Positions 128-39,662 of a stretch of DNA of 44,753 bases are shown here, piece after piece; the first letter of the stretch is position 1, and each line of letters begins with the position of its first letter. The stretch is from a virus, in IMG/VR virus record IMGVR_UViG_3300035691_000012, positions 1 through 44,753 of that record; one strand, 5' to 3'. The notes below the pieces were generated by a model, which saw only the letters and a list, made by a program, of their open reading frames with translations, was not told where the DNA came from and searched no databases. Position numbers and translations under genes: made by a program.

Positions 128-1247
128 ACCAGATATTTCGAGTATACAATTCATTAAAAATATTTTTGGTTTGTTTAATGTGGCTACTGATTTTGATCAC
201 TATACAAAGACAGTGACATTAAATTTATTTGACAAAATTTTTGAGAAGGATCCTATAGATCTAAGTAATTATATCGATTTATCCGAAGATCCTAAACAAG
301 ATTTCATAGATTTTATATCCGATTACGGTACAATAAATAGTATGTTGTATAAAGCTTCAGATAATGATAATATAAAAAAATACAATGAAGAGAATATAAA
401 ACAATATGGTTCAGGAGAAATAAAAATAGATAATGATTTCATACAAGGATCAAAATCACTTATCTCATTGGACCTTACAGCAGCCTATAACTACATAAAT
501 AAATGCACAGGAGCATCGTTAATACAGGCAAATTATTTAGAAGAAGATTTATCTTCTGAAAAGACCATTAATAGCGTAACGAATGATGGCGGACAAGCTA
601 AATTTAATTTCACAGCCCCACCACCTGATGCAATGACTACAGGAACAATTGTCAGAATAATAAATTCTGATCTTATTTATCAAGGTAATGCTATAGTAGA
701 ATCTGAAGTAATAGGATCATTTAAATTAATTGATGTTCAATACCAGGGTGCAATTACAAGCGGATCTTTTAAGATTGTTAATTATAAAAATATTGAAAAT
801 CAGGATATAACGTTAGCTATTTTTAAAAAGAATGTATCTGTATCAGACATATCACCATTTAATGATGTAACTATAGTTTATGATTCTCCTGCCAACACAA
901 TTAAGGTTAGCAATATAGGATATATTTTCTTTTCACGAAATAATCAGCCAGAATTAAATATAAACGGAAAAGAGAAATATTCATTAAATTTCGGTGACGG
1001 AGCTTCTGATAATTATCAGATAGGATTGATTGATAATTACTATAAGGAAGCGAACAAGATACTTAATAATCCGATTAAGACATTTTTTACTATGTTGATA
1101 CCGGATTCTGTTTTTGTAAAGCTTACTAATTTAAGACCTATTTATTTGAGATCAGAATTTGGGGTTGGTAAATATTATTTGAATAAGATAAGTGGATATA
1201 AGGATAGCGTAACTCCTTGTATATTTCAACTTATAAAAATACCATAA
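1..1247 (+). CDS. Tail protein, 3' part of gene crossing the contig join
   Basis: This is the C-terminal 415 residues or so of a 732-residue protein that starts at 43675 and crosses the join in frame; 952 + 1247 bases make exactly 733 codons. The ATG at 27 is internal. The protein is rich in Asn, Ser, Ile and beta-prone segments and lacks a catalytic motif I recognise. It sits between another large tail protein and the tape measure gene, whose ATG overlaps its stop by one base (TAATG at 1245-1249). Position suggests a baseplate, tail-hub or distal-tail component. The virion role is inferred from context only. Confidence 0.75.
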   Translation, partial: LEPGDYIEVYLKPFSSSTNILPKSYLTIIPTVFTDIYYSDYLPDISSIQFIKNIFGLFNVATDFDHYTKTVTLNLFDKIFEKDPIDLSNYIDLSEDPKQDFIDFISDYGTINSMLYKASDNDNIKKYNEENIKQYGSGEIKIDNDFIQGSKSLISLDLTAAYNYINKCTGASLIQANYLEEDLSSEKTINSVTNDGGQAKFNFTAPPPDAMTTGTIVRIINSDLIYQGNAIVESEVIGSFKLIDVQYQGAITSGSFKIVNYKNIENQDITLAIFKKNVSVSDISPFNDVTIVYDSPANTIKVSNIGYIFFSRNNQPELNINGKEKYSLNFGDGASDNYQIGLIDNYYKEANKILNNPIKTFFTMLIPDSVFVKLTNLRPIYLRSEFGVGKYYLNKISGYKDSVTPCIFQLIKIP

Positions 1248-3211
1248 TGGCAACCGAGACAACTAAAGAAGAAGTAATAATTGAGTTCAAAATAGATCAG
1301 GGGCAAGCTTTATCTGATTTGAAGAAAACGGAGAAAGCCATTCTTGATAATAAGGAAGCTCAGAAAGAACTAAATGATCAGTACAAAAAGAATCTTGTTA
1401 CTCAGGAAGAATACATTAATGAGAGTATTAAGCTACAGCGTAATCTTAAAACTGAACAGGATAATAGAAGGACATTAGGTAAGTTAATAGATACCGAAAG
1501 CAATTCACGTAATGCGTTGAAGGCTCGCGTAGCTCAGCTCACAAAAGAATACGATAATCTAAATGTAAAAACAAAAGAAGGTAAGGCAAGGTCAACTGAA
1601 CTTGAGAAAGAACTATCTATATTAAATGCACAGATTACAAAAACTTCGAAATCTGCCGGATTATTCAAAGACCAGATAGGTAATTACCCTCATCAATTCG
1701 GAGAAGCAGCTAAGAGCATAAATGTTGCCGGTGTTTCTGTTGGTGATCTTGGAACCAAATTAATGTCATTTGCTAATCCTGCCACGGCGGCTGTTGGTAT
1801 TGTTTCGGCATTGGGTGCAGCTTATGCACGGTCTACGATAGGAGCTAAGGATTTAGAATTTGCGTCCAATCAGTTATCAACAGCCTTAACAATTTCTACC
1901 AATGCTTTTGCTAATTTAATTTCTTCTGCCAAAGATGGAGAGGGTATATTAAGTAAATTAGTTGGTGGATTATTATTTCAGATAAGCCCAGGATTGGCAA
2001 TCCTATCAAGTATGGCTGCACAATCTAAAGAGACATTAGAAGATCTTGGTAGAACTGAATTAGAAATACGGGATAAGGTAAATGATCGATTAGAAACTAA
2101 CCAGGAATTATTATCAGATCTTGGCGATGCACAGGTTTCTTATGATGATAAATTATTTAAAAGTGGTCAGATCATAGATAATCTCAGGGCAAATGAAGAG
2201 GAACTTTTAAAAGTAAAGAAAGATGAATTACAGGAGCTTCAATTTCAATTAGCGCTCGATAAAGAAAATGAAGATCTACAAACTATAGTATTAGAGAAAC
2301 AACTTGAAATATCCAAGATTGAAAAGGATACAACAAAACAAGTTGAGAAAATATTGAGATTAAAAGAGAATCTGACAAGCGCAGAAGAGAAAAGACTTGA
2401 AGCATTACGAAAAGAACGGGATTTATTGAATGACATTGATAGGCGTTCAGCTGGTGGAAATGCCAAATTATCAGGCGATGCAAAAGATCAACAAGTTGAA
2501 TCAGACATTAAAAAATCTTTTGCTATTGATGAATCTAAAACACTGATTGATATTAATCAGTACACACAGGAATCAATAACAAAGTTTACTAAGTCAGAAG
2601 AACAAAAAAGATTTGATGAACACCAAAAATATATCGAAGCTCGTAGATATGCTGATGAGGAAGAACTCGCCTATACTGCTGATGCTGTCGGGGCATTAAG
2701 TCAGTTATTTAAAAAGGGAGGTGATGAATATAAGGCTGTTGCTTCATTACAAACTATCATATCAACTTATGCGGGTGCACAGAAAGCATATGAATCACAG
2801 GCCTCTATTCCTTATGTTGGTCCTGAGCTTGGAGCAGTTGCAGCAGCGGCTGCAGTTGTAGAAGGTCTTGCCAGGCTTGCTGTAATTAACGGAATACAAT
2901 TCGCTGAAGGGGGTTATACCGGATCAGGAGGGAAATATGAACCGGCTGGAGTTGTACATAAAGGAGAGGTAGTTTGGAATCAACGAGATGTTGCCATGGC
3001 TGGTGGCCCTCAAATTGCTAATATGATGCGGCCGACATACAAAGGTTATGCCGATGGCGGAATAGTAACTAGCTCATTGACCATGGACACTAATACCGCA
3101 TTGATGCAAGCCAATGCAATCAAGATGATGCCTAATCCTGTGGTCTCTGTTAAAGAGATAACACTTGCGCAACAAAGAATTCAGGTAAAAGAAAATATTA
3201 GCACATTATGA
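1247..3211 (+). CDS. Tail tape measure protein
   Basis: A 654-residue protein with the tape-measure pattern. Residues about 10-145 and 270-430 are long charged coiled coils. A Gly/Ala-rich hydrophobic stretch lies near 160-260, and a second Ala-rich hydrophobic patch near 520-550. I take ATG 1247, which overlaps the previous stop, and not the in-frame ATG at 1217 inside the upstream gene. Tape measures set tail length and are ejected with the DNA; by the usual rule of about 0.15 nm per residue this one would fit a tail near 100 nm. It ends in an ATGA overlap with the next gene. Unusually, it precedes the capsid gene. Confidence 0.82.
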   Translation: MATETTKEEVIIEFKIDQGQALSDLKKTEKAILDNKEAQKELNDQYKKNLVTQEEYINESIKLQRNLKTEQDNRRTLGKLIDTESNSRNALKARVAQLTKEYDNLNVKTKEGKARSTELEKELSILNAQITKTSKSAGLFKDQIGNYPHQFGEAAKSINVAGVSVGDLGTKLMSFANPATAAVGIVSALGAAYARSTIGAKDLEFASNQLSTALTISTNAFANLISSAKDGEGILSKLVGGLLFQISPGLAILSSMAAQSKETLEDLGRTELEIRDKVNDRLETNQELLSDLGDAQVSYDDKLFKSGQIIDNLRANEEELLKVKKDELQELQFQLALDKENEDLQTIVLEKQLEISKIEKDTTKQVEKILRLKENLTSAEEKRLEALRKERDLLNDIDRRSAGGNAKLSGDAKDQQVESDIKKSFAIDESKTLIDINQYTQESITKFTKSEEQKRFDEHQKYIEARRYADEEELAYTADAVGALSQLFKKGGDEYKAVASLQTIISTYAGAQKAYESQASIPYVGPELGAVAAAAAVVEGLARLAVINGIQFAEGGYTGSGGKYEPAGVVHKGEVVWNQRDVAMAGGPQIANMMRPTYKGYADGGIVTSSLTMDTNTALMQANAIKMMPNPVVSVKEITLAQQRIQVKENISTL

Positions 3212-3436: not shown

Positions 3437-5737
3437 ATGGAAATTGCCTTCATGAACGAAGGTCATATTTTCATAGACGAACAAATTAGCCCGGACACCT
3501 ATACAATGGTTAAGCAGCGTTTAACGCAATATGCAGACCGGTCCAAAATTGTAGTTCATATAGCATCACCTGGTGGCTCAGTCTATGCCGGGTATAATAT
3601 TTACAATGCACTTAAATTATCAGGCAAACCTATCAGTGTAATCATTGAAGGCGAAGCTCAATCTATGGCAACCTTTATCGCCTTGGCCGCAAGCCCTGGC
3701 GAACTCAAGATTTGCAACCCGTCAGTATTCATGATCCACATGCCACACTCTGGAATGCAGGGAACGGCAGAAGATTTCGAATCCGGAGCCAGCGAACTGA
3801 GAACCATTGAAAATGATATGGTTAAGGCTTATTCAGATAAGACAGGTATTGCCCCCGATCAGATTCGCGAAATGATGCGTAAAACAACCACACTGAATGC
3901 CGTTGAGGCTGTAAAAATGCGGTTTGCTGATGGTGTTTTGAATAATTATTTAACCGCCGCCGCAATCGGCAAACCAATTAAAAACATGAAAAAAAATATT
4001 ATAGTTACCGGTCTTGAAAAGCTCGCTAAAATGATAGGCGAGGCAGAAGGTAATACAGCTCCATCGGCATACGATGTATCGCTTATTGATGGCACAGTAC
4101 TTTCAGTTGCGGCTCCTAATGAAGATTCCATGATTGGAGCGCCTGCTACTATTGGAGGAGCACCCGCACCTGATGGTGATTATCAAGCGGTCCCTGATCC
4201 TGATGATGTTGGAGGAGTGGGTGATGTTATTACAGTGGCTGGTGGAGTGGTTACGGCTGTAACTGAGCCGACACAGGCAGCTAAACCAGCGATGCCACCA
4301 AAACCAGTTGCCCCTGTTCCGCCACAACAAATACCAGTTACGCCGGTACCTGCACAAGTCGCTACAGATGAAGTTGCGGCACTCAAGGCAGAACTAGCAG
4401 CCATTAAAGCTGAAAAAGAAGCAGCCGCTTCAAAACTTGTAGAACAAACCACCGCCTTAGGCGAAATTAAAAAAGAAGTATTAGCCATGAAATCAAAAAC
4501 AGTAGGCGATGACAATGAGCCATTTATGGGCGTTGTTCCGATAAAGCATGTAGGTAACTCTGGAATACGAGATGCTAAAATGCATAATATCAAAATGTCT
4601 AAGCGTTTCATTCTTGAAAATATGGGATGGCTTGAACAATACTATCCGACAGGACATTTTGATGATGTGAAGAGCACGCCTTCAATGACTTCAATCATTG
4701 AGACGAATTTCAATTTCACATATCCTGGTATTCTGACAACTGACTTATTCTATAAGCCAACACTGTCAAGCCCTGCGCTTTCAGACATGTTTACCATTGA
4801 CCAAGGTATTTCTTTCCAAAAGAGATACAATGTGATACCTGGCTTATCTAAAGTAATCAAGCCTTATACTGGTTGCGGTGCTCCGAATTCAAACAGCTCA
4901 CGCGATTTGATTTCAAGCGTGACACTTCAAACAAAAGAATTCAGAATGCAGGAAGCCTGGTGTAAGGATGATTTTACACAACAATTAACAGGTATTTATA
5001 ATCATCTTGCACAAGAATGGCTTAAGACAGGTGAACGTTCTTTCGATCCGGCAGGCACTCCAATTGACGGAGTAATTCAGGAAGTACTTACAGATGCCAT
5101 GCGCCGTGACTTATTTATACGCGCTACGATGGCAGCAGGCAATAGTTCAAATGCTGATTTCAATCAGATTGATGGTCTTTGGGATCGCTTGATTGATAGC
5201 TCAGGCGCTTCAAATTATTGCGTTGTTAAAGCATCAGGTACATCACTCGGAATGACTGCACCTACTGCAACATCAGCTGCAGATGCATTGGAAGCGGTTT
5301 ACATCCAGTCTAATGATCTGTTAAAAGAGCAAATGGATAAGGCTGTTTTCTGGGTTACTGGTAACATTTACGATGCTTATGTTAATAAGCTGATCGGAAC
5401 CGGAAACGTATCACAAGCTCAATATGAGGCCTTCATCAACGGTATAAAAGGTTCTGGAACCTGGAATGGTGGTATCACTTACAAAGGTATTCCACTTAAC
5501 CCTGTGCGTCTGTGGGATAATTCATTGGCAGATTCAAACAACCCGTTGTTTGGAACTACTAAGAGCTTGATTCTATTGAGTGTTAAACAAAACCACATGC
5601 TAGGCGTTGAAAGCTCAGCTGATCTTAACAAGATCGAAAGCTGGTATGAAATGAAGGATTCTAAGAGATACTACAGATCAGATTTCAAAATCGGTTATCA
5701 GTATTTACATTGCGATCTTCAGACTATAGCTTACTAA
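3437..5737 (+). CDS. ClpP-like prohead protease / scaffold / major capsid protein fusion
   Basis: A 766-residue polypeptide with three parts. Residues 1-190 are a ClpP-type (S14-like) head maturation protease: an SPGGS turn at 44-48, nucleophile Ser76 in EAQSMA, His101 in MIHMP, and probable Asp165 in FADGVLN. Residues 195-320 are Ala/Pro/Gly-rich and low complexity, and 324-366 form an Ala/Lys/Glu coiled coil, as in a scaffold. Residues 370-766 resemble an HK97-type major capsid protein. In most phages protease and capsid are separate genes, so self-cleavage to release mature capsid protein is expected. ATG 3437 is chosen; Met6 is an alternative. No stop or frameshift separates the parts. 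Confidence 0.85.
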   Translation: MEIAFMNEGHIFIDEQISPDTYTMVKQRLTQYADRSKIVVHIASPGGSVYAGYNIYNALKLSGKPISVIIEGEAQSMATFIALAASPGELKICNPSVFMIHMPHSGMQGTAEDFESGASELRTIENDMVKAYSDKTGIAPDQIREMMRKTTTLNAVEAVKMRFADGVLNNYLTAAAIGKPIKNMKKNIIVTGLEKLAKMIGEAEGNTAPSAYDVSLIDGTVLSVAAPNEDSMIGAPATIGGAPAPDGDYQAVPDPDDVGGVGDVITVAGGVVTAVTEPTQAAKPAMPPKPVAPVPPQQIPVTPVPAQVATDEVAALKAELAAIKAEKEAAASKLVEQTTALGEIKKEVLAMKSKTVGDDNEPFMGVVPIKHVGNSGIRDAKMHNIKMSKRFILENMGWLEQYYPTGHFDDVKSTPSMTSIIETNFNFTYPGILTTDLFYKPTLSSPALSDMFTIDQGISFQKRYNVIPGLSKVIKPYTGCGAPNSNSSRDLISSVTLQTKEFRMQEAWCKDDFTQQLTGIYNHLAQEWLKTGERSFDPAGTPIDGVIQEVLTDAMRRDLFIRATMAAGNSSNADFNQIDGLWDRLIDSSGASNYCVVKASGTSLGMTAPTATSAADALEAVYIQSNDLLKEQMDKAVFWVTGNIYDAYVNKLIGTGNVSQAQYEAFINGIKGSGTWNGGITYKGIPLNPVRLWDNSLADSNNPLFGTTKSLILLSVKQNHMLGVESSADLNKIESWYEMKDSKRYYRSDFKIGYQYLHCDLQTIAY

Positions 5738-5756: not shown

Positions 5757-6323
5757 ATGGCTACGAATAATAGTTGCAAAGCAGCTTCGGGTATTAGTAA
5801 TGGGTGCACAGATCTTCTACGTGTAGGAGGTCTGGATAAAACATTTTGGATTTTTTATAAAAGCCAGCTTGACACCCAGATAAGCTTAACCCAAGTTGCC
5901 GACATTAACGTCTTGGATTTTGGTCCGTACGGTGGTTTGCTTCGTTTTGATGGGCAGAAGTTCTCGCATGAGTACACCTCGCCATTGGTTGTAGCTAACA
6001 CCGGAAATCGTTCCTATGCTCCTACACTTACGATTAAGATTCTGTCTAATACAACGGCTCACGATGTTGTGATTCAGCAATTGAATTTAGGTCAGGATAT
6101 TGTCGCTATCGTGCAGAATAACAATAATGAATTCTTGATTCTTGGTGCAGGTAAAGGGCTTTACGTCACTGCCAATACTTCGGGATCAGGATTGACCGGT
6201 GATGCCGATACGAGCGATACGATTACGCTGACAGGGGCAGAGACTACTAAACCGCTTAGATTCTCGAAAGCTGGCGGTTATCAGGCGACGCTTGATTATT
6301 TGACGGCGTTTGAAATTGGATAA
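5757..6323 (+). CDS. Virion structural protein, major tail tube candidate
   Basis: A 188-residue protein directly behind the capsid gene, with the only strong Shine-Dalgarno sequence I noticed. It is beta-rich, with Thr/Gly/Asn-rich C-terminal strands (TSDTITLTGAETTKPLRF), the composition expected of a tail tube or capsid decoration protein. No enzymatic motif is present. The predicted high expression and size fit a major tail protein; a head decoration protein is the alternative. A structured RNA or terminator follows it directly. Confidence 0.6.
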   Translation: MATNNSCKAASGISNGCTDLLRVGGLDKTFWIFYKSQLDTQISLTQVADINVLDFGPYGGLLRFDGQKFSHEYTSPLVVANTGNRSYAPTLTIKILSNTTAHDVVIQQLNLGQDIVAIVQNNNNEFLILGAGKGLYVTANTSGSGLTGDADTSDTITLTGAETTKPLRFSKAGGYQATLDYLTAFEIG

Positions 6324-6439: not shown

Positions 6440-6619
6440 ATGGACAAACAGGAAATTAAAAACAGATTGATTGCGGCCCGGGAATTACAGACTGCAAATA
6501 GAGGATCCAAGAACTGGAAGGATGCTTTCAAAGCTTATGAGCAGGCCACGGGAATAAAATTAGATATTGGTTGTAATAAATGTTTTCAACGTGTTTTAGA
6601 TTGGTTAAATGAATCTTGA
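6440..6619 (+). CDS. Small conserved-type phage protein
   Basis: A 59-residue protein with a helical, charged N-terminus and a CNKCF pair of cysteines near residue 45. I prefer ATG 6440 over the in-frame GTG at 6425, which lies within the RNA stem. It overlaps the next gene by 11 bases. Function unknown; it starts the transcription unit that runs into the glycan cassette. Confidence 0.6.
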   Translation: MDKQEIKNRLIAARELQTANRGSKNWKDAFKAYEQATGIKLDIGCNKCFQRVLDWLNES

Positions 6620-7277
6620 TTTTATACAGATAATCTATAATGACATACAAGCCGAGCATTGTTACCCATTCGCAAGGATTCATAAAAACGAAACGCTTAC
6701 GCCGTATTTTGAAAACTCAGTCATTAGAGAACTTATACCAAATTGTAACTCAGGAATTATCGGTATTGTATCCTGGAGGCTCAAGCAAAAAAGAGGCGAC
6801 ATGTTCAGACTTATAGACAAATCTCTGACACTTGAAAAGCTCACAGAAACCGAATATGATGTGGCCGTTCTCACGCCGCGATCGCCTACGCATCAAGCTT
6901 TACATATGGCTGCCAATTGGCATAGCCCAAATTGGACTCCGGCATTTGAAGTATTCAAAAGGTTTCTACGAACTGACCTTGGTATTAAGGTGCCTACTGA
7001 ATTGAGTCATCCTATTTATGAAAATCATTTTGTGGCTAAACGAGAAATTTATCATGAATATGTATCTTCTTGTCTTGTTCCTTCTATCGAATTTATGCAC
7101 AGCAATAGTGACATATTTCTTTGTGACGCGGGCTATGCGAAAAGAAAAACATCAGCCGAACGTCAAAGATATTTTGGACTTACCGGGCGTAAAGATTGGC
7201 CAATTGCCCCGTTTATCTTAGAGAGATTATTCAGTATTTTTTGTGAACGAAAAGGATTTAACATAATAAACTTATGA
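6609..7277 (+). CDS. Protein of unknown function at the head of the glycan cassette
   Basis: A 222-residue soluble protein. I do not recognise a full family. The C-terminal WPIAPFILERLFSIFCERKG has the flavour of capsule-type glycosyltransferases of the DUF4422 kind, which end in an ERL segment, but no DxD motif is visible. It overlaps the next ORF by four bases (ATGA) and so is translationally coupled to the sugar-transfer genes that follow. A role in glycan assembly is inference from context. Confidence 0.6.
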   Translation: MNLDFIQIIYNDIQAEHCYPFARIHKNETLTPYFENSVIRELIPNCNSGIIGIVSWRLKQKRGDMFRLIDKSLTLEKLTETEYDVAVLTPRSPTHQALHMAANWHSPNWTPAFEVFKRFLRTDLGIKVPTELSHPIYENHFVAKREIYHEYVSSCLVPSIEFMHSNSDIFLCDAGYAKRKTSAERQRYFGLTGRKDWPIAPFILERLFSIFCERKGFNIINL

Positions 7278-7507
7278 CAAAAGCATCATTAGAACGAGGT
7301 AGAGAAATAATCGAAGAAATTTCTCATCTAAAATATTCAATGTCAAACGTTCATAAAATTGATCTGTTTGATGTAAATGAACAACGTGCGTGCACGAGGC
7401 AAGCAAATGAATTTTTATGTGAATTAAGCATACAAAAAAAACATGAATTAATTGATGCTATCAATAAAAAAATAGTATCTCTTGAAGCTGAGTTCCAAAA
7501 ACTATGA
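7274..7507 (+). CDS. Small helical hypothetical protein
   Basis: A 77-residue charged, mostly helical protein, coupled by ATGA overlaps at both ends to the unknown 222-residue gene and to the fucosyltransferase-like gene. No recognisable domain. The unbroken coupling suggests co-production with the cassette. Confidence 0.65.
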   Translation: MTKASLERGREIIEEISHLKYSMSNVHKIDLFDVNEQRACTRQANEFLCELSIQKKHELIDAINKKIVSLEAEFQKL

Positions 7508-8304
7508 TAGTATCAAAACACATAGGAAGGCTAGGTAATAACATGTTTCAGATTGCGGCCGCTATCGGATATGCAAAAGAATATGGCTATCAATGGGCAG
7601 CTGATCCAAGCAACGGGCACGGCGAACCATATTCATGTATTCACAAAGTGTTTCCTAATCTACCTAAATCGGCACCATCAGGATTAAGATTCCATGAGCA
7701 CCCAAATAAGTTTTGTGAGAAGCACGGTGTTCACATGGATCTGTGCCATTTTGATTATCATGAAATACCAGACATGGGTCCAGATGTAGCGCTATCAGGA
7801 TTCTTTCAATCTTATAAATATTTTGAGAATGCACAGGAAGAAGTGAGGAAAGTCTTTAAACTAAATATAAATGATGCTTATAAAAATCATACGAGTATCC
7901 ATGTACGCCTTGGCGATTATCTTCAGCATTCAGGTAGTTTCCCTCCTATTACTTCTGATTATTTACATATGGCATTACGGAGTATTCCACATGCCAAAGA
8001 ATGCGTTATTTTTAGTGATGATATATCTCGCGTTAAAGATATGGTTGTTAATGGATTTGAGGAGTATGATTTTGAATTTTCGGAAGGAAAAGACGAATTA
8101 CAAGACATTTCATTAATGGCATCATGTGGTAATCATATTATAGCTAATAGTACATTCTCATGGTGGGCTGCATATCTTGGACATAATCCAAACAGAATAG
8201 TAGTTTCACCATCAGCACAAACTTGGTTCGGTCCAACGGCTGGAGTTAAGCAACCAGTTATTGATCTTATACCATCCAATTGGATTCAAATACATACACG
8301 ATGA
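7504..8304 (+). CDS. GT11 family glycosyltransferase (alpha-1,2-fucosyltransferase-like)
   Basis: A 266-residue protein, close to the usual family length. It has the three GT11 signatures: GRLGNNMFQ at 8-16, the GDP-sugar binding HVRLGDY at 133-139, and NSTFSWWAAYLG at 215-226. Family members move L-fucose, and in some cases L-galactose, from the GDP-sugar to the 2-OH of an acceptor hexose. No signal or membrane segment is visible, so it acts in the cytoplasm on a nucleotide-sugar donor. The GDP-mannose 3,5-epimerase-like gene two positions on suggests GDP-L-galactose as donor (inference). Confidence 0.9.
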   Translation: MIVSKHIGRLGNNMFQIAAAIGYAKEYGYQWAADPSNGHGEPYSCIHKVFPNLPKSAPSGLRFHEHPNKFCEKHGVHMDLCHFDYHEIPDMGPDVALSGFFQSYKYFENAQEEVRKVFKLNINDAYKNHTSIHVRLGDYLQHSGSFPPITSDYLHMALRSIPHAKECVIFSDDISRVKDMVVNGFEEYDFEFSEGKDELQDISLMASCGNHIIANSTFSWWAAYLGHNPNRIVVSPSAQTWFGPTAGVKQPVIDLIPSNWIQIHTR

Positions 8305-9002
8305 TAAGCCTTTGTATTACCACATATCAACGCACAACTATGCTTTTCGAATCATTCGCTAAAGTAATGAATGATAATCGTATTAGCGAGATAGTGATAG
8401 TTGATGATTGTTCGGATTCTGAAACATGGAATGATATTTGCATTCACATCGGATTATTGCACAATGATAAATTCAAGCTTTATCGTAACGATAAAAACTT
8501 AGGATGTTATCATAATAAAAGAGAAGCAGTAAATAAAGCATCAAATGAATTTGTTATACTTTTGGACTCTGATAATATAATTGATGTTGATTACATAGAT
8601 TGTCTTTTCAATAATAAACAATATTGGAATTACGATAGGTTACTTCAACCAGTATTCGCTAAACCACATTTTAATTTTACTTTATATACTGGTTTATTTA
8701 TAAGTAAATCAATAGTCCATGAATATGCAGACCAATCAACATTCACCACGGCATTAAACGCTATGAATTACTTTGTTAATCGTGATGAATTCTTGCGAAT
8801 ATTCGAAGATCGTGAAGAGCCATGGACCGCAGACAGTATTTTAATAAATTACAACTGGCTTAGCGCTGGCAATTCAATTTACTTTTGCCATGGATTAGAA
8901 TACGAACATAGAGTACATGATGGCTCACACTATAAAGAACACCATCGAAAGACAGGTAATCTATTTAATGAAATTGTTAACAAACTAAAAGCAATGCGAT
9001 GA
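8301..9002 (+). CDS. GT2 family glycosyltransferase
   Basis: A 233-residue GT-A fold enzyme. It opens with the strand ISLCITTYQR, followed by EIVIVDDCSD near 37-46 and a DSDN metal-binding motif near 91-94. I start at ATG 8301 (ATGA overlap with the GT11 stop), not at the in-frame ATG 8280. At this length it is little more than the catalytic domain. Donor and acceptor are unknown. It is coupled by ATGA to the epimerase gene. Confidence 0.87.
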   Translation: MISLCITTYQRTTMLFESFAKVMNDNRISEIVIVDDCSDSETWNDICIHIGLLHNDKFKLYRNDKNLGCYHNKREAVNKASNEFVILLDSDNIIDVDYIDCLFNNKQYWNYDRLLQPVFAKPHFNFTLYTGLFISKSIVHEYADQSTFTTALNAMNYFVNRDEFLRIFEDREEPWTADSILINYNWLSAGNSIYFCHGLEYEHRVHDGSHYKEHHRKTGNLFNEIVNKLKAMR

Positions 9003-10033
9003 AAACAGCATTAGTACTCGGGGCTGGTGGGTTCATAGGTTCTCACATGGTTAAAAGATTGAAGTCAGAAGGATATTGGGTTCGCGGTGTTGATTTGAAA
9101 TATCCTGAGTTTTCACAAACTGAAGCTGATGAATTTATAATTGGAGATTTGAGATTAAGAGATTTTGTTTCTGTTGTTATGTTTGCTCCATCTCAATCTG
9201 AAGTGAAGAAAGGAGGATTTGATGAAGTGTACCAGTTTGCGTGTGACATGGGCGGTGCTGGTTATGTTTTTACTGGTGAACATGATGCAGATATAATAAC
9301 AAGTGTTTTGATAAATCTACATGTCGCTGATATTGGAGTAACTTTTGGAATTGGAAAAATATTCTATTCTTCATCAGCTTGCATGTATCCACAAGAAATT
9401 CAAAATAATGTGAAGCCTAATATAAGAATAGGTTATTCATTAAAAGAATCAGATGCTTATCCAGCAAATCCAGATAGTGAATATGGATGGGAGAAACTTT
9501 TCAGTGAACGTCTTTATTTAGCCTATGCTCGAAATTATGGATTAGATGTTCGTATAGCTCGTTTCCATAATATCTATGGACCAGAAGGAACCTATAAAGG
9601 AGGCAAGGAGAAAGCACCGGCAGCAATGTGCAGAAAGGTTATTGAGTCTTTAAGATGGAAACAAGATCTAACTGAACAGATATCAATTAATGATATAGAG
9701 GTTTGGGGCGATGGTTTACAAACACGCTCATTTCTTTATATCAATGATTGTATTGATGCTGTTCGTTTATTAATGCAATCCGATTTCAAAGAACCTATCA
9801 ACATAGGAAGTGAAGAAATGGTGAGCATAAATAATCTTGCGCAGATGGCAATTGATTTATCAGAAAAAGACATTAAGATCAAAAACATTGATGGTCCTAC
9901 TGGTGTTCGTGGTAGAAACTCAGACAACACATTAATAAGAAAAGTATTGAACTGGGAACCCAAATTCTCATTAAAACAGGGGATCGAATTAACTTATCTT
10001 TGGATAAAGTCACAGTATGCGCGAAACTTATAA
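8999..10033 (+). CDS. NAD-dependent epimerase, GDP-mannose 3,5-epimerase-like
   Basis: A 344-residue extended short-chain dehydrogenase/reductase. The Rossmann motif GAGGFIG is at 8-14, SSSACMYP at 124-131, YGWEK (Tyr162, Lys166), HNIYGPEGTYKGGKEKAPAA at 190-209, and WGDGLQTRSFLYI further on. These blocks are those of GDP-mannose 3,5-epimerase, including the cysteine (Cys128) and the lysine of KEKAPAA (Lys205) that carry out the acid-base steps in the plant enzyme. The expected reaction is GDP-D-mannose to GDP-L-galactose (or GDP-L-gulose). Host GDP-mannose would be the substrate. It overlaps the next gene by 17 bases. Confidence 0.85.
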   Translation: MKTALVLGAGGFIGSHMVKRLKSEGYWVRGVDLKYPEFSQTEADEFIIGDLRLRDFVSVVMFAPSQSEVKKGGFDEVYQFACDMGGAGYVFTGEHDADIITSVLINLHVADIGVTFGIGKIFYSSSACMYPQEIQNNVKPNIRIGYSLKESDAYPANPDSEYGWEKLFSERLYLAYARNYGLDVRIARFHNIYGPEGTYKGGKEKAPAAMCRKVIESLRWKQDLTEQISINDIEVWGDGLQTRSFLYINDCIDAVRLLMQSDFKEPINIGSEEMVSINNLAQMAIDLSEKDIKIKNIDGPTGVRGRNSDNTLIRKVLNWEPKFSLKQGIELTYLWIKSQYARNL

Positions 10034-10571
10034 AAACATTCCAGGCGATATGTGCGATTTCCATGATTACTATCGTGGAATAGCTGAACGATTGCCAAAT
10101 GGATGCAGAGTTGTTGAGGTTGGAGTTGCAGACGGTCATAGTGCTATATTCTTAGCTGAGACACTTGCTAACATGGGTAAAGATTTTCATTTGTATATGG
10201 TTGAACCTATGACATACGGCGGTACAGATCAAGCTAACACAATCATACAGAACATTGTTAAGTCTGGCCTTGGCGACAAAATAACTTTGTTGCAAATGGG
10301 TTCTTTGGATGCTTCATGTAAATGGCCAGATAATTGGGCACACTTTGTATTCATCGATGCATCACATCGATATGAATCAACAAAAGCGGACATAAGACTG
10401 TGGCACCGAAAGGTTATGCATGGATGTTATTTAGCTGGGCATGATATGAATGAAGAAGATGGTAAAGAAGTATGGCAGGCAGTTAAAGAAGTTATTCCGC
10501 AGGCTTCAATAATTCAAACATCGAAAGGATTAGGAGTTTGGCAAATTAAAAAGGAAGATTTATGCTTATAG
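10017..10571 (+). CDS. Class I SAM-dependent methyltransferase (Methyltransf_24 type)
   Basis: A 184-residue Rossmann methyltransferase. Motif I is VVEVGVADGHS at about 33-43, an acidic residue follows at MVEP, and motif IV is FVFIDASHRYES near 108-119. This IDASH.Y pattern marks the Methyltransf_24 group, common in sugar and cell-wall loci. Its place in the cassette suggests O-methylation of a sugar or glycan. It overlaps both neighbours by 10-17 bases. Confidence 0.82.
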   Translation: MRETYKNIPGDMCDFHDYYRGIAERLPNGCRVVEVGVADGHSAIFLAETLANMGKDFHLYMVEPMTYGGTDQANTIIQNIVKSGLGDKITLLQMGSLDASCKWPDNWAHFVFIDASHRYESTKADIRLWHRKVMHGCYLAGHDMNEEDGKEVWQAVKEVIPQASIIQTSKGLGVWQIKKEDLCL

Positions 10572-11191
10572 ATTTCAGACAACTATTCCCAAAGTACAAC
10601 ATTAAGCCGCAGGGAGTTCTTCATATAGGCGCAAATGTCGGAGAAGAAGCACCGATTTATCGTGAGCTTGGAATTGACAATCAGGTTTGGATAGAAGCTA
10701 ATCCAGAAATTTATCACAAGCTTAAAATGTTTATCTCTGATAATCCGCATGCGCTTGCTTTAAATTACTGCATTGGTGATGAAGATGGCAAGCAAGTAAC
10801 GTTCCATGTTTCAAATAACGGAAGTCAATCAAGCTCCATTCTTGAATTAGGCACACATAAAATTGCTCATCCTGAAGTTCATTATGTTCAAGATATTTCA
10901 ATGACTACTCACAGGATTGATACAATTCTTAAAGCTCATGATTGGTCTGTATTGCCAATGGACTTCTTAAACATTGATCTTCAGGGCGCAGAATTAATGG
11001 CCTTAAAAGGCATGGGTGATTTATTGAATCGTTTTAAATGGGCTTATCTTGAAGTAAATAAAGCTGAGCTTTACAAAGGATGTGCATTGATTGAGGACAT
11101 TGATTTTTATTTAGGTGCTTATGGATTCAAGCGTGTTGAAACAAAATGGTGTGGAAATACTAATTGGGGCGATGCCCTTTATATAAAATGA
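10562..11191 (+). CDS. FkbM family methyltransferase
   Basis: A 209-residue protein with the FkbM layout. SAM-binding GVLHIGANVGEEAPIYRELG is at about 18-37, a WIEANPEIY segment follows, then MTTHRIDTIL, and the signature DFLNIDLQGAELMALKGM near 139-156. FkbM enzymes O-methylate sugars and polyketides, and are frequent in Bacteroidota phage glycan loci. The reaction here, probably O-methylation of a transferred sugar, is inferred. It is coupled by ATGA to the GT25 gene. Confidence 0.88.
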   Translation: MLIDFRQLFPKYNIKPQGVLHIGANVGEEAPIYRELGIDNQVWIEANPEIYHKLKMFISDNPHALALNYCIGDEDGKQVTFHVSNNGSQSSSILELGTHKIAHPEVHYVQDISMTTHRIDTILKAHDWSVLPMDFLNIDLQGAELMALKGMGDLLNRFKWAYLEVNKAELYKGCALIEDIDFYLGAYGFKRVETKWCGNTNWGDALYIK

Positions 11192-11964
11192 TACTCGACG
11201 AATCTTACGCCAGCTTCATAAATCTACCACATAGACATGATCGTAAGGATCATATGAAACGCGAGCTATCGCGTGTTGGTATTGAAGCAGAATTAACAAT
11301 AGGATTAAATCCTGATCTATTTCAAGGGCCACAATACGCCACCATGAGAAACAGAACGCCTGGCGCTATCGGTTGCCATATGGCACAAGTATCTGTCATG
11401 CGAGAGGCCTTAAATCGCGATAAGCATGCCTTTGTAATGGAGGATGATTTGATCTTCTGCACAGATATAAAAGATCGTTTAGAACACATTACAAACTTCT
11501 TACAGGGCCGGGAGTGGGACGTGGTTTGGCTGGGAGGCACATTTCATTCACCCGCTTTCTGGCATCCTGTAGGACGCTCTAAAATGAATCCTAATTGCTC
11601 ATCAGGAATTGGCAGAGATTGCATTCCTACAGAGGATCCAAGAATAATGCGAACTTATGGGGCATTCTCTACACATGCATATATAGTTAATAAAAACAGT
11701 ATACAAAAGATACTATCACTTTTTGACGAGTACATTCATGAATCAATCGGTATTGATTGGCTTTTCATAAAGCTTCAACCGCAATTAAATTGCTTCGCCT
11801 ATGTGCCAGGATGTGTGAAGCAGATCGATAATCAAAGCGATATAGGAACCGGTATAACTAAGTTCTCAGGATTCTCAAAATTAAACGGTAATGAAGAGAA
11901 TTCAAGATATTGGTTCCAAGATAGAAAAGAAGATTTTGACCCAACATCATTCCAATGGACATAA
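11188..11964 (+). CDS. GT25 family glycosyltransferase
   Basis: A 258-residue protein of the LgtB/Lex2B (GT25) family: SFINLPHRHDRK at 9-20, a GAIGCHMAQVSVMREAL block near 59-75, an acidic VMEDDL metal-binding site near 83-88, and a later DWLFI. These enzymes typically add galactose or glucose to lipooligosaccharide. I start at ATG 11188, overlapping the FkbM stop, instead of the upstream in-frame ATG 11164. It overlaps the next methyltransferase by 10 bases. Confidence 0.86.
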   Translation: MILDESYASFINLPHRHDRKDHMKRELSRVGIEAELTIGLNPDLFQGPQYATMRNRTPGAIGCHMAQVSVMREALNRDKHAFVMEDDLIFCTDIKDRLEHITNFLQGREWDVVWLGGTFHSPAFWHPVGRSKMNPNCSSGIGRDCIPTEDPRIMRTYGAFSTHAYIVNKNSIQKILSLFDEYIHESIGIDWLFIKLQPQLNCFAYVPGCVKQIDNQSDIGTGITKFSGFSKLNGNEENSRYWFQDRKEDFDPTSFQWT

Positions 11965-12482
11965 AGTATAGAATTGATCTCTATAAACTTCTTCCAAAGA
12001 ATCCAGTTACTTGCGAATTAGGAGTAGCTGAGGGAAATTTCAGTTATGATATATGCCGCGAATGGATGCCAACAAAGCATTACATGGTTGATAATTGGAG
12101 CAAGCTAAATGTTCATGGCGATGGGTCAAACGATAATAATTGGCATGATAGAAATTATGAGCAGGCCTTATATAAAATAAGGGATTATCATCAGATTGAA
12201 ATATTAAAAGGTATTACCTGGGAAATGGCAAGACTTGTTCAGGATGCTTCGTTGGACCTATTATATATTGATGCGTGCCATTCGTACGAATGCGTTAAAA
12301 ATGATCTTGCTGCCTGGTATCCGAAAGTTAAGCCTGGTGGAGTAATAGCTTTCCATGATTATCTATCTACCGAATATGGCGTTAATCAAGCTACCAATGA
12401 GTTCGCTCTACAACATGGATTAGAAATACATTTGATACCAGAAAATAAAGTGCCCGATGCTGGAGCGTGGATTAGAATATGA
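11955..12482 (+). CDS. Class I SAM-dependent methyltransferase (second Methyltransf_24 type)
   Basis: A 175-residue enzyme with motif I TCELGVAEGNFSYDI at about 19-33, MVDNWS as the acidic second strand, and LDLLYIDACHSYECVK near 100-115. A PGGVIAFHDY segment follows. It is related in layout to the protein at 10017-10571 but not a close copy. The IDACHSY motif again suggests the sugar-locus group. It is coupled by ATGA overlap to the last glycosyltransferase. Confidence 0.82.
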   Translation: MDIKYRIDLYKLLPKNPVTCELGVAEGNFSYDICREWMPTKHYMVDNWSKLNVHGDGSNDNNWHDRNYEQALYKIRDYHQIEILKGITWEMARLVQDASLDLLYIDACHSYECVKNDLAAWYPKVKPGGVIAFHDYLSTEYGVNQATNEFALQHGLEIHLIPENKVPDAGAWIRI

Positions 12483-13183
12483 ACATAGAAGCCTTTATAA
12501 TAGCATGGAACGAATCTGAAACGATTCATTTAACCATAAAACACTATCAAAAATATTGTTCAAAGATAACCATTTTCGACAATTTCAGCGATGATAATAC
12601 GCGTGAAATAGCCGAATCAATGGGGTGTTACGTTAAATTATTCGGAATTCAGGGCTTATTATCTGATCAGGAATATATAAAAGTCAAAAATAACTGCTGG
12701 AAAGAATCAAAAGCAGACTTTGTTGTAGTGTGTGATGCGGATGAAATACTTGACTTGTCATTTATTCAGGATACTAACGCAACGATTATTAAGACATTTG
12801 GGTGGAATGTTCATTCGACATCATTACCGATTAATAGTTGGCTTGAACAAACTACAGGAGTTTATGATAAAAACTATTCTAAATCGGCATTATTCAGTCC
12901 TAAACTAAAAGAAATTGGTTATATCTATGGTTGCCATGACTGCAAGCCAATAGGTAACGTTTCATATTCTGAATTTACAGTACCTCTATTCCATTATCGG
13001 AACGCCGGAGGATCATATAGGCTTGTTAAAAGACATGCGTTATATAGGCCACGATTGGCACCTATTAACAAAAAATGGAATCTTGGAGAACATTACAACC
13101 ATGAAGATGAAAGGAGAATAAGAGAATGGAAAGAACGATTCGAAAGATCGGTAGAATTTTCACCGGGTTTTATCTTGCAATAA
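12479..13183 (+). CDS. GT2-like glycosyltransferase
   Basis: A 234-residue GT-A enzyme opening with AFIIAWNESETI, then ITIFDNFSDDNT at about 30-41, and a CDADE metal site at 85-89. The WNE start and the C-terminal histidine-rich HYRNAGGSYRLVKRH segment resemble glycosyltransferase family 2 members that act on lipopolysaccharide cores. It closes the cassette and overlaps the next small gene by 58 bases. Confidence 0.83.
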   Translation: MNIEAFIIAWNESETIHLTIKHYQKYCSKITIFDNFSDDNTREIAESMGCYVKLFGIQGLLSDQEYIKVKNNCWKESKADFVVVCDADEILDLSFIQDTNATIIKTFGWNVHSTSLPINSWLEQTTGVYDKNYSKSALFSPKLKEIGYIYGCHDCKPIGNVSYSEFTVPLFHYRNAGGSYRLVKRHALYRPRLAPINKKWNLGEHYNHEDERRIREWKERFERSVEFSPGFILQ

Positions 13184-13392: not shown

Positions 13393-15066
13393 GTGAGAAA
13401 ACCAAAGAAACACAAATTAGAAGGCGCAGAAGATCAACATTATCAACCTCGTCAAAATAACAGGTTTTCAGCATCGCCACGACCTAAAATTTATCATCGA
13501 CATACGCCTGATAATTTAGAACGAGAGGCCACAACACTAGGACAAAAGGATTTCTCAGAAAATACTTTACGTTGGGGTGATAAAAATGATTTCCCGTTGA
13601 TCCTGGCAAAATATGTTCAGGATAGCCCCGCAGCTTCATCATGTATAAGCACGCGTTCAAATTTCATTAAAGGATCTGCTTTTTCTGATCCGGACATGAT
13701 GAAATTAAAAGTGAATAAAAATGGACAGACCCTCTGGGATTTGCATTGTTTGTTATCTGATTCACTCGCCTTATTCGAAGGCTTCACGATTAATTTTAAG
13801 TTTAATGAACTGAATGGAATTACGAATGCCTATAATATGGCAATCGAAAATTGCCGTTTTGTAAAGCCTGATGATGATCTCGCGACTAACATAACGACAA
13901 TCAAATACAATCCTTATTTTGGGACATTAGATTATCAGAAAAAGTATACGAAGGAATATGCGCTTTGGGATCCTGAGAATTTGGAAGAACAGATATCGAA
14001 AAAAGGTACCAAGTTCACCGGTCAAGTTTATTATTATGGAAAAGTAAAGCCTTTATATAGATTCTATCCGGTGCCTGATTACTGGAGTGCAAAGAAATGG
14101 ATTTATATTGATGGTAAGATTCAGGAAGCGCATGCAGAAAACCTTGATAATGGCTTCTTTCAATCAGTAATACTTCAGATGGTTGGTGATCCGTCAGCCA
14201 AATCAAAGAATCCAGCATATATGAAGCGTGTATCTAATCCTGATGGAACATATCGATTAGAACCGGATAAGACAGTAGGAGAAGAATTTGATGATATGAT
14301 GAGTAAATCATTTTCAGGTTCCAGTAAAATGGGCACTGCATTGGTTCTATGGGCTCTTAAAAAAGAAGAAGCTGCAGGTGTTAATCCATTTCCGAGCACG
14401 GCAAATGCTGATTTGTTTATTGCACTACAAGACCTTACAACAAAGAACATAACTATTGCGACAAAGACACCTGGCATTCTGGCAAATATTAGCGAAGGTG
14501 TTAATCTTGGCTCAGGAGGGTCTGAAATTCAAAAGGCAGTTGAATTGATGCAGTCAAATACGGCTCCCGATCGCAACAGATTAGAACAATTTTACAACGA
14601 AATATTACTTCCAAATCTTCAAATTGAAGGACAGAAGATAAAGAAGAATGCAGAAATAAAAATCAAGAATTACAATCCAATAACAGTAGATGTTAAACTT
14701 GAAGATAAGTTTTGGAATGTATTAAATGACAAAGAAAAACGCGATTATGTTAGAAATAATTTTTCTGAAATACAGCTTCAAGATGATGAACCTAAAACCG
14801 ATGCATTAGGAAATGATTTACCGCAAGAAGAATTACAGTTAAATAAGATATTAACAAATCTCACTGCGCAGCAGAACTTCCAATTGATGAGAATTATTCG
14901 TCAATTCGGTAAAGGAACTTTGAATCAAGAACAAGCTACGCTATTATTACAATCTGGCTTTGGGTTCTCTGATGAGCAAATAGTAAAATTCTTAGGACTT
15001 GATGATGCTCCATCAAAAGATATACTGACACCTGAACCAACTACACAATTAACGGTGGCACAATGA
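13393..15066 (+). CDS. Portal protein
   Basis: A 557-residue protein starting at GTG 13393. It has the length and pattern of a portal: a beta-rich N-terminal region with LRWGDKNDFPLILAKYVQ (about 56-73) and DSPAASSCISTRSNFIKG, a long mixed core, a helical stem region around 310-420, and a Gln/Glu-rich C-terminal tail. Portals form the dodecameric DNA gate at the capsid vertex and bind terminase. The gene lies 10 kb downstream of terminase-tail genes, beyond the glycan cassette, which is unusual. A weak promoter-like stretch (TTATTTTG) sits 15 bases upstream. Confidence 0.75.
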   Translation: MRKPKKHKLEGAEDQHYQPRQNNRFSASPRPKIYHRHTPDNLEREATTLGQKDFSENTLRWGDKNDFPLILAKYVQDSPAASSCISTRSNFIKGSAFSDPDMMKLKVNKNGQTLWDLHCLLSDSLALFEGFTINFKFNELNGITNAYNMAIENCRFVKPDDDLATNITTIKYNPYFGTLDYQKKYTKEYALWDPENLEEQISKKGTKFTGQVYYYGKVKPLYRFYPVPDYWSAKKWIYIDGKIQEAHAENLDNGFFQSVILQMVGDPSAKSKNPAYMKRVSNPDGTYRLEPDKTVGEEFDDMMSKSFSGSSKMGTALVLWALKKEEAAGVNPFPSTANADLFIALQDLTTKNITIATKTPGILANISEGVNLGSGGSEIQKAVELMQSNTAPDRNRLEQFYNEILLPNLQIEGQKIKKNAEIKIKNYNPITVDVKLEDKFWNVLNDKEKRDYVRNNFSEIQLQDDEPKTDALGNDLPQEELQLNKILTNLTAQQNFQLMRIIRQFGKGTLNQEQATLLLQSGFGFSDEQIVKFLGLDDAPSKDILTPEPTTQLTVAQ

Positions 15067-16240: not shown

Positions 16241-16582
16241 ATGAAATTCTTACTTACACTTTTAGCGTGGTTAGCTTGGAACATAGCTGAAATGGAGATC
16301 AGGCGACGTGAACTCGATGAAGATGGTAATCCTCAAACAAACTTTTCATTTGCAATTTATGCGAAGGCTAAGAGATTTATATGGGCAGGATCTTTCGTTA
16401 TGATTTTCATTCTACTTATAATCGGTAAGATGAAAATTGATATTTCTAAATTAGGTGATATTGTAGGAACAGATCTATCATGGAATGATCTTTATTACCT
16501 AGCCCCTGGTATTGGATTTGAAGCAATTATTTTTGGCATACGATGGATTCAAAAATACTTTACAAAACGATTAGCACAATGA
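16241..16582 (+). CDS. Small membrane protein
   Basis: A 113-residue protein with three likely membrane stretches: residues 1-15, about 48-62 (WAGSFVMIFILLIIG) and about 84-101. A charged EMEIRRRELDEDG segment lies between the first two. It overlaps the fibre gene by four bases. It may be a holin-like or membrane-anchoring protein, but the lysis genes lie 6 kb away, so the role is open. Confidence 0.65.
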   Translation: MKFLLTLLAWLAWNIAEMEIRRRELDEDGNPQTNFSFAIYAKAKRFIWAGSFVMIFILLIIGKMKIDISKLGDIVGTDLSWNDLYYLAPGIGFEAIIFGIRWIQKYFTKRLAQ

Positions 16583-19485: not shown

Positions 19486-19503
19486 ACTTAAATACTATAA
19501 GCC

Positions 19504-20061
19504 ATGAAAATTTTATTTATTATTTTATCTATTTTTTCATCCCTATGTGTCATAGCTCAAGATGTTTCTCCAATCGTTGTCAACCTTAGTGACAATGCTA
19601 AACTTCAATGGAATGGCAGTAATGTTAAAATGAAAGCTACTGTTCTTGATTACAGGCCCGTGATTAATGGTACTAAGGAATTTTACATACTGGTTAAAGT
19701 TTCTTTTTATGAAAATTTAACTGGCTCTTATGGAAGTAAAATAACTGATCTTATAAATGCCGATGGTACACTTTCAAATGACCAGAAAATAAGCTTACTT
19801 TCAATATATTCTGATAGGATAGTAGACCATCAAACTACTGGGTTATGCGCAGATGCAACTAGTGGAAACATAGTTCCATGTTTACAAAATGATGGAATAA
19901 CTCCTACAGTTAACGCAGTTAGTGAAGAAACTTATTGGCAAACCTTTAAATTAAATCAAGTAAGTGGTGTTACATCTATTTCAACTCAAGGAGCTATGGA
20001 TGCTGAATATAAAATAATTCAGGCTATTGTTACTAAAATGAATTCCCGTAAAAACTGGTAG
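19504..20061 (+). CDS. Exported protein of unknown function
   Basis: A 185-residue protein with a clear signal peptide (MKILFIILSIFSSLCVIAQ, cleavage near residue 19). The mature part is beta-rich, with two cysteines near residues 118 and 129 that could pair in the periplasm. It follows the fibre gene by 18 bases and may be a fibre partner or a host-surface factor. No family recognised. Confidence 0.68.
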   Translation: MKILFIILSIFSSLCVIAQDVSPIVVNLSDNAKLQWNGSNVKMKATVLDYRPVINGTKEFYILVKVSFYENLTGSYGSKITDLINADGTLSNDQKISLLSIYSDRIVDHQTTGLCADATSGNIVPCLQNDGITPTVNAVSEETYWQTFKLNQVSGVTSISTQGAMDAEYKIIQAIVTKMNSRKNW

Positions 20062-20107
20062 GGTATAAAAAATGCAAAATTTAAAATCCTACTAAACCGA
20101 TTGAATA

Positions 20108-20386
20108 ATGATAAGATTATTTCTAATTATCCTATTATCGATTTTGGCTTATGCTCCCGCCATTGCTCAGAAAAAAGATTCTGTTAAGTATGAGAAGTTT
20201 GCCAAGGTTCCATTGAATGACATTCAATTATTACTGCAATTATCTCACGAATATAAGCGTACAATTATTTACGATCCTACTATCGAAGAGAAAAACAAAA
20301 CTCAATACTTCAGAAATGTTGAAGCGGCTTTAATTGAGTTGCGTAGAAGAATTTCGATTGATAGTGTTAAAGTGAAAACCAAATGA
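20108..20386 (+). CDS. Small exported protein
   Basis: A 92-residue protein: signal peptide to about residue 20 (ending in AYAPAIAQ), then a Lys-rich helical mature part. It is coupled by ATGA to the esterase gene. Position between exported fibre-locus proteins and the esterase suggests a joint role in the cell envelope; no domain recognised. Confidence 0.68.
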   Translation: MIRLFLIILLSILAYAPAIAQKKDSVKYEKFAKVPLNDIQLLLQLSHEYKRTIIYDPTIEEKNKTQYFRNVEAALIELRRRISIDSVKVKTK

Positions 20387-38450: not shown

Positions 38451-39662
38451 GTGCACGATATAGAAATAGAAATTGAACGCCCTAAACTAACATCATATCA
38501 AAAGGCAATACTATACTCTCCTGCCAGGTTTACAGTCACAAAGGGAGCCACTAAGATAGGTAAGACATTCCCGCATCTATGGTGGTTATTCGAGAAAGCA
38601 CACGAAGATATACCAGGAAACAACAAAATACGCAATTATTGGTGGGTGGCACCCGTATTCTCCCAGGCAAAAATAGCTTTTAACCGTTTACGTAGAGTTG
38701 CGATTCAATGTGGTTATCGAATCAATGAATCAGAACTATTCATAGAACTATCATCAGGCAATAGGATTTGGTTCAAATCAGCTGATAATCCTGATAATTT
38801 GTATGGTGAAGATGTTTACGCAGTTGTTTTTGACGAGTTCACCCGGGCGAAAGAAGAAGCATGGACAGCTCTTAGATCGACATTAACCGCAACAAAAGGG
38901 CAATGTAAGTTCATTGGGAATGCCAAAGGCCGCAAAAATTGGGGGCACAAACTTTGGTTAAAAGCCAAATCAGGTGAGGCCGGGTATGAAGCGTTTAAGG
39001 TAACAGCATATGATGCCGTTGAGGCTGGCATTCTTGAACTGGAAGAAATTGAGCAGGCAAAAAGAGATTTGCCAGAACTGGCATTCAAAGAACTGTATCT
39101 CGCCGAGGATCTTGACGACCAAGCAAACCCTTTCGGGATTCCATTCATACAAAAACAAATCAAACCATTATCAAACAAAACACCGGTCGCTTTTGGAATA
39201 GACCTCGCTAAATCCGTGGATTGGACCGTAGTAATAGGATTGGATGATAATGGCGATCAATGCTTTTTTGACCGATGGCAATCCGATTGGGGCCAAACCC
39301 GCAGACGGATCATATCAATCGTGGGCTCAACGCCTGCAGCAATAGACAGTACTGGTGTCGGTGATCCGATAGTCGAGGATATTCAAAAAGAATGTTACCA
39401 AGTGGAAGGATATCATTATTCATCAGCCAGCAAACAAAAGCTTATGGAAGGCCTTGCATCAGGGCTACAGAATGGTTTAGTTAGCGTATTGGATGGTGTT
39501 CAGCGTGATGAAATGGAAGCATTCGAATTCATTTATAGTCGCACTGGGGTGCGTTATGGTGCCCCTGAAGGCATGCATGATGATACCGTTAACTCATTGG
39601 CATTAGCATACCACAAACTTAAAGATAGACCTTCAGCACCTTATTTCAGTACGCACCGATGA
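38451..39662 (+). CDS. Terminase large subunit
   Basis: A 403-residue packaging ATPase/nuclease starting at GTG 38451. A Walker A variant GATKIGKT is at 32-39, Walker B VVFDE at 125-129, and a coupling motif FIGNAKG near 154-160. The RNase H-like nuclease has Asp in GIDLAKS (about 246), Asp in AIDSTGVGDP, and DD in HDDTVNS near the C-terminus. It cuts and pumps DNA into the prohead through the portal. It is coupled by ATGA to the tail chaperone gene. Confidence 0.93.
   Translation: MHDIEIEIERPKLTSYQKAILYSPARFTVTKGATKIGKTFPHLWWLFEKAHEDIPGNNKIRNYWWVAPVFSQAKIAFNRLRRVAIQCGYRINESELFIELSSGNRIWFKSADNPDNLYGEDVYAVVFDEFTRAKEEAWTALRSTLTATKGQCKFIGNAKGRKNWGHKLWLKAKSGEAGYEAFKVTAYDAVEAGILELEEIEQAKRDLPELAFKELYLAEDLDDQANPFGIPFIQKQIKPLSNKTPVAFGIDLAKSVDWTVVIGLDDNGDQCFFDRWQSDWGQTRRRIISIVGSTPAAIDSTGVGDPIVEDIQKECYQVEGYHYSSASKQKLMEGLASGLQNGLVSVLDGVQRDEMEAFEFIYSRTGVRYGAPEGMHDDTVNSLALAYHKLKDRPSAPYFSTHR

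Follow-up and report, generated by a model that had tools for sequence, protein, structure and literature searches.

Genomic context of the head gene

The window analysed here is the whole 44,753 nt of IMG/VR virus record IMGVR_UViG_3300035691_000012. Its forward strand carries, at 3437..5737, a single gene in which a ClpP-type head protease, a scaffold region and a predicted HK97-fold major capsid protein follow one another in one open frame with an ATG start (766 aa, 83.0 kDa). A tail tape measure protein gene lies upstream (1217..3211; phrog_1506, 3e-28), and a conserved small gene directly 3' of the capsid-coding part (5757..6323; phrog_19091, 2e-5) adjoins the capsid gene in relatives too. 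Genes for the portal protein (13393..15066; phrog_11226, 1e-38) and the terminase large subunit (38451..39662; phrog_2, 5e-32) follow, all on the forward strand. The presence of tape measure, portal and terminase genes indicates that the window derives from a tailed phage. A distant relative, phage BS-TP3, infects Bacteroides salyersiae and has its protease, capsid and portal genes in the order seen in the window, and the host of the window virus is therefore probably a member of the Bacteroidota.

The interval between the capsid-coding region and the portal gene (6609-13183) is occupied by a sugar- and methyl-transfer cassette, comprising a gene at 6609-7277, a GT11 fucosyltransferase-like gene, a GT2, an NAD epimerase, two Methyltransf_24 genes, an FkbM methyltransferase, a GT25 and a second GT2. 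A glycosyl cassette was present at the same place in the relatives with a fused head gene and in several of those with split genes (L004, L005 and L006), and was reduced to a homologue of the 6609 gene and one glycosyltransferase in L020 and L022. The 6609 gene, which nearly all of these relatives have, gave no Pfam or PHROGs match. The cassette could serve in glycosylation of the virion or of the host surface.

Further downstream, at 16543-21273, four consecutive genes have apparent bacterial signal peptides as judged by eye, which is unusual in the late region of a tailed phage. They encode a 980-aa fibre-like protein, proteins of 185 and 92 aa, and a 296-aa esterase/alpha-beta hydrolase-like protein with a GLSGG motif.

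Domain architecture of the fused gene

The first 171 residues (3437..3949) form a ClpP-like serine protease domain. Residues 5-169 matched the Pfam family CLP_protease (PF00574) at 2.4e-32, the domain scored 123.3 bits against the NCBIfam model NF045542, 'head maturation protease, ClpP-related' (cut-off 120), and its predicted structure superposed on ClpP 6mx2 with E=1e-14 and a target TM-score of 0.81. The catalytic residues Ser76 (3662..3664), His101 (3737..3739) and Asp165 (3929..3931) were all present and were invariant among close relatives, in agreement with the protease and triad proposed in an earlier note on this DNA. The distant relatives with split genes, L037, L038 and L044 (BS-TP3), have Thr at the position of the catalytic Asp, reading FAT or FIT where the close family has FAD or FVD. 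Judged from these sequences, conservation of the protease triad stops at the close family.

The region between protease and capsid was resolved into several parts by a full-length structural model. Residues 172-209 (3950..4063) are a disordered and poorly conserved linker (pLDDT ~38-42) that nevertheless contains a conserved Met184. Residues ~210-280 (4064..4276) are predicted as a small beta domain of six strands (pLDDT ~77-94), kept in both fused and split relatives, and are followed by a disordered Pro/Ala-rich segment at residues 281-308 (4277..4360; pLDDT ~38-40). The description of this region as a low-complexity linker in the earlier note thus applies only to the Pro-rich segment; it does not suit residues ~210-280, where a domain of about 70 aa is predicted with confidence. 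The coiled coil described there was recovered, as a single predicted 45-residue helix directly after the Pro-rich segment (residues 309-353, 4361..4495), and it gave a weak match to the head scaffolding protein family phrog_206 (E=0.006). A further helix at residues 378-402 (4568..4642) corresponds to the C-terminus of the scaffold protein that split relatives encode separately. The junction, residues 414-425 (4676..4711; TPSMTSIIETNF), matches the start of the separate capsid gene and is the predicted processing zone.

The remaining part, residues 417-766 (4685..5734, 38.8 kDa), with a folded core from ~448, had no match to Pfam, NCBIfam or PHROGs models over residues ~417-766, and searching PDB sequences with a profile of the capsid part returned nothing meaningful. 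Its structure was predicted from 24 aligned relatives with moderate confidence (pLDDT 73.6). In a Foldseek search this model matched the HK97 capsid protein 1ohg with E=5e-9 and a probability of 1.00, and the list of matches consisted of HK97-fold capsid proteins throughout, with target TM-scores mostly of 0.45-0.67. The predicted structure therefore places the capsid part in the HK97-fold class, as a full capsid protein in line with the earlier proposal. It was 52-63% identical to its close relatives. Among the open reading frames of the window examined with profile libraries, no separate capsid gene was found. The profiles and predicted structures together support the order of protease, scaffold and HK97-fold capsid protein within one frame, and they identify the capsid protein, missed by Pfam and NCBIfam, of a group of phages, probably of Bacteroidota.

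Fused and split relatives

Relatives of the window gene were collected from two IMG/VR scans. The same unbroken fusion was found in eight other contigs (L001, L002, L008, L009, L011, L014, L015 and L025), at 45-58% identity to the window protein, which confirms the uninterrupted frame (3437..5737) described in the earlier note. Frame errors do occur in this dataset. In L024 the frame is broken at 4065, near the start of the separate capsid gene, probably through a sequencing or assembly error; in L010 it is broken at 2993-2996, inside the scaffold coiled coil. A fusion created by the artefactual loss of a stop codon can nonetheless be ruled out and has a negligible probability, since eight contigs share the same unbroken frame together with a junction that is absent from split relatives.

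In nine close contigs (L004, L005, L006, L016, L017, L020, L021, L022 and L024), and also in the distant L037, L038 and BS-TP3, the same parts are encoded by separate genes. At these split loci, the protease-scaffold gene stops within a few bases of the ATG of the capsid gene, and this ATG aligns with Met417 of the window protein. The separate capsid proteins typically begin M-A-S-A-L-E-T-N-F-N-Y-T-Y-P-G, corresponding to M-T-S-I-I-E-T-N-F-N-F-T-Y-P-G from residue 417 of the window protein, and the last residues of a separately encoded scaffold (FLAENFPLLKRN before the stop in L005, for instance) correspond to the window helix F-I-L-E-N-M-G-W-L-E-Q-Y-Y-P. The old gene boundary therefore lies at about residue 417.

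In a tree of capsid sequences, the fused rows together with L003, L007 and L010 formed one clade (100/100) nested inside the split rows. The tree was rooted on the split outgroup L037/L038/L044, whose branches are long, so the position of the root is not beyond doubt. The nesting of the fused clade among split relatives indicates that the fusion arose once by the joining of neighbours, and one in-frame fusion of neighbouring genes is the simplest account. The reverse course, in which the fused state was ancestral and the separate genes of the relatives are products of fission, is very unlikely: similarly ordered fused genes do occur in unrelated phages, but here all fused rows fall into one clade nested among split rows, and L037, L038 and BS-TP3, the distant outgroups, have separate genes. 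With close relatives that keep the same parts in separate genes, the family allows a direct study of how fusion affects assembly and the natural boundary of the capsid protein.

Some further observations were made among the relatives. L010 groups with the fused clade, and its two frames share no more than a few bases, at a place with no obvious slippery site; it probably represents a broken frame or a sequencing error, and could be a real split. A distant group of capsid genes (L027-L036) encodes proteins of ~430 aa that are ~24-32% identical, and no ClpP-type protease was detected in the flanks examined. A scan of bacterial genome contigs returned no relative.

A conserved candidate start codon between protease and scaffold

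The earlier note had reported that no internal start separates the domains, and had concluded that every capsid subunit would carry its own protease. Both statements are probably wrong. When the Met residues of the linker were located by anchoring on the catalytic-Asp motif, an in-frame ATG was found 17-30 residues after this motif, within the disordered linker, in 20/20 loci, fused and split alike. When the rows were instead anchored on the linker Met, no other position was conserved. In the window this candidate start is the codon of Met184 (3986..3988), and translation from it would give a scaffold-capsid protein of 583 aa (63.0 kDa) that lacks the protease; such a protease-free product would make a protease on every subunit improbable.

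The presence of a Met somewhere in a 14-residue stretch of one sequence has a probability of about 0.34 by chance and is not rare, and the argument for an internal start therefore rests on all 20 rows together with the nucleotide context. The 15 nt upstream of the internal ATG contained a mean of 9.05 A, compared with 5.02 at 300 other in-frame ATGs and 9.36 at the true capsid starts of the split relatives. An A was present at position -3 of 18/20 internal ATGs (86/300 of the other ATGs), with enrichment also at -6, -12 and -13. The mRNA structure around the internal ATG was weak, at -1.6 against -6.2 kcal/mol. The excess of A was partly synonymous: resampling of synonymous codons gave 7.65 +/- 0.20 A against the 9.05 observed, and the ratio of the lysine codons AAA and AAG was 33:4 near the internal ATG and 424:347 elsewhere. 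The p-values for A content, mRNA structure and lysine codon choice were 3e-11, 5e-10 and 1e-5 respectively, and are optimistic because the sequences are related and not independent.

The ATG of Met184 in the window had the most A-rich upstream context among 26 internal ATGs examined, with a stretch at 3971..3985 that has 10 A in 15 nt and A at -3, -6 and -13. The fused rows were slightly less A-rich than the split rows (8.25 against 9.58), and the context was weaker in two fused genes: L008 has 6 A in 15 nt, and L015 has 5 in 15 and lacks A at -3. In Flavobacterium johnsoniae, a member of a phylum without Shine-Dalgarno signals, initiation is driven by the positions enriched here, -3, -6, -12 and -13 (PMC6847099). 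From conservation and context we infer a second translation start at Met184, which is well supported on these sequence grounds, and the gene probably makes both an 83-kDa protease-scaffold-capsid protein and a 63-kDa scaffold-capsid protein.

Two other readings of the locus were weighed against this one. The first holds that there is a single product, each capsid subunit carrying protease and scaffold with cleavage timed by assembly. The frame is indeed open from 3437 to 5737, and a full-length product is required for the protease to exist, but a start-like ATG is conserved at the place of Met184 in all 20 loci, including the split relatives and the Bacteroides phage BS-TP3, and the Gifsy-type genes considered below have a parallel Shine-Dalgarno/ATG; a single product is accordingly unlikely. 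The second, distinctly less likely still, is that Met184 is kept not as a start codon but for a protein reason, such as a self-cleavage site of the protease between protease and scaffold. This would fit the predominance of Lys and Asn before Met184 in many rows, which could form such a site. Selection is nonetheless visible at synonymous sites, in the preference for AAA over AAG, and in the weakness of the local mRNA structure. Beyond this, no conservation was seen in the flanking residues, and the gammaproteobacterial cases, in keeping with the needs of their hosts, have a Shine-Dalgarno sequence where the window family is A-rich. A second start at Met184 remains the better explanation of the conserved ATG.

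An internal start at the capsid junction itself, Met417, was also considered and was rejected for the family. The junction Met is absent in the fused L008, L011 and L015, and the capsid protein alone is therefore not made from a start there.

Proposed assembly of the head

The existence of a head encoded by one gene raises the question of how the phage avoids equipping every one of its several hundred subunits with a protease. The comparisons above show the fusion, the folds and a single fused clade: the protease-scaffold gene and the adjoining capsid gene of a phage lineage, probably of Bacteroidota, were joined once, in frame. We propose that the resulting gene is read from two starts. Full-length 83-kDa chains would bring the protease, and 63-kDa chains from Met184 would serve as scaffold-capsid subunits without it. 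Both products would co-assemble through their capsid and coiled-coil/scaffold parts, giving a procapsid in which only some subunits have a protease. Once enclosed in the procapsid, the ClpP-like protease would cleave the chain where the two genes once met, near residues ~414-418, a site predicted solely from the position of this old boundary by comparison with split relatives. Cleavage would free a capsid protein of ~38-39 kDa and would destroy the scaffold and the protease itself before DNA packaging. We assign this account as a whole, from the single in-frame fusion to the cleavage near ~414-418, a probability of roughly 0.7.

The suggestion in the earlier note that cleavage must be timed with assembly is retained in part, since one would expect the capsid protein to be released by proteolysis within the assembled particle; the premise of a protease on every subunit is not. 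The conserved internal start would be a specific answer to the question of protease per subunit, and one that would apply to Gifsy-2 and similar phages.

Comparison with known head genes

The earlier note had contrasted the fusion with the usual separate genes. The fusion is real, but it is less unusual than was suggested, and the architecture itself is not new. A 'tripartite capsid gene' has been described for Salmonella phage Gifsy-2 (Effantin et al. 2010, Virology 402:355, as cited in PMC8814770 and PMC8538268), and NCBIfam curates such fusions as NF045540 (ClpP-like prohead protease/major capsid protein fusion) and NF045541. Protease-scaffold-capsid fusions are also reported from actinobacteriophages, in Microbacterium cluster EE, Arthrobacter clusters AN, AX and FE, Gordonia clusters CW and DM, and Rhodococcus phage RRH1 (PMC7302621). 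What is new here is the capsid family, a fusion that arose independently and has sister phages with split genes, and a probable second start.

The Gifsy-2-type gene family includes F10, Fels-1 and mEp043, and at least 68 phage records hold genes with 80% or higher coverage of the mEp043 version. Genes of this type resemble the window gene in uniting, in the same order, a ClpP-like protease, a central scaffold-like part and an HK97-fold capsid protein, and in having an in-frame ATG with an initiation signal just after the protease, at codon 211 in mEp043. Between Gifsy-2 and the window, the protease alone aligns, at about 29-38% identity, and no significant blastp match was found between the capsid parts. 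Membership of NF045540 was rejected for the window gene, which scored 125.3 bits over residues 25-326 only, far below the cut-off of 475, compared with 949.6 for Gifsy-2 and 1013 for F10, and whose capsid part lacks sequence homology to Gifsy-2. On these comparisons the window gene shares the architecture as an instance of its own, and its fusion was a distinct event in a lineage where members with separate genes persist.

Ten Gifsy-type genes were examined at the protease/scaffold border (L045, which is Gifsy-2, L046, L040-L042, L047-L050 and L043). In 9/10, all but the divergent Vibrio PE001 (L043), AGGAG or GAGGA precedes an ATG in the equivalent position, although the residue encoded there varies (E, K or Q). 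An internal Shine-Dalgarno and start is thus possible at the border of the known tripartite genes. The actinobacteriophage fusions share the same three functions in one gene and differ from the window gene in their unrelated capsid sequence and high-GC hosts; the RRH1 protease, to judge from a weak TIGR01543 match, belongs to the HK97 prohead protease type, unlike the ClpP-like protease of the window. In RRH1 (L051), AAGGA precedes an ATG at the protease/scaffold border.

The border ATGs of the Gifsy-type genes and RRH1 suggest that fused head genes generally may be two-product genes. A statement to this effect was not found in the open-licence literature searched. We lean towards the view that fused protease-scaffold-capsid genes are two-product genes across unrelated lineages (Bacteroidota phages whose ClpP protease is joined to a new capsid family, the Gifsy-2 type, and possibly RRH1 with its HK97-type protease), in which a start at the border, written in the initiation code of the host (A-rich or Shine-Dalgarno), would set the ratio of protease-bearing to protease-free subunits.

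The predicted arrangement has parallels in phages with separate head genes. In the C/Nu3 system of lambda, the protease has a C-terminal scaffold, and the scaffold alone is also made from an internal in-frame start. The split relatives of the window, with their conserved internal ATG, would resemble this system; the lambda capsid protein E is encoded by a separate gene, whereas the window capsid is fused to its scaffold. In HK97, the scaffold is the N-terminal delta domain of the capsid protein gp5 and the protease gp4 is a separate gene. The predicted 63-kDa product of the window would be a scaffold-capsid fusion like gp5, with which it shares the predicted capsid fold (1ohg); the HK97 protease is of another family and separately encoded, whereas that of the window lies in frame upstream. 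The Bacteroides phage BS-TP3 (PQ571276), whose capsid protein is 23% identical over 71% of the query, is like the window in its order of ClpP protease, capsid and portal and in its conserved internal ATG, and differs in encoding protease-scaffold and capsid as separate genes.
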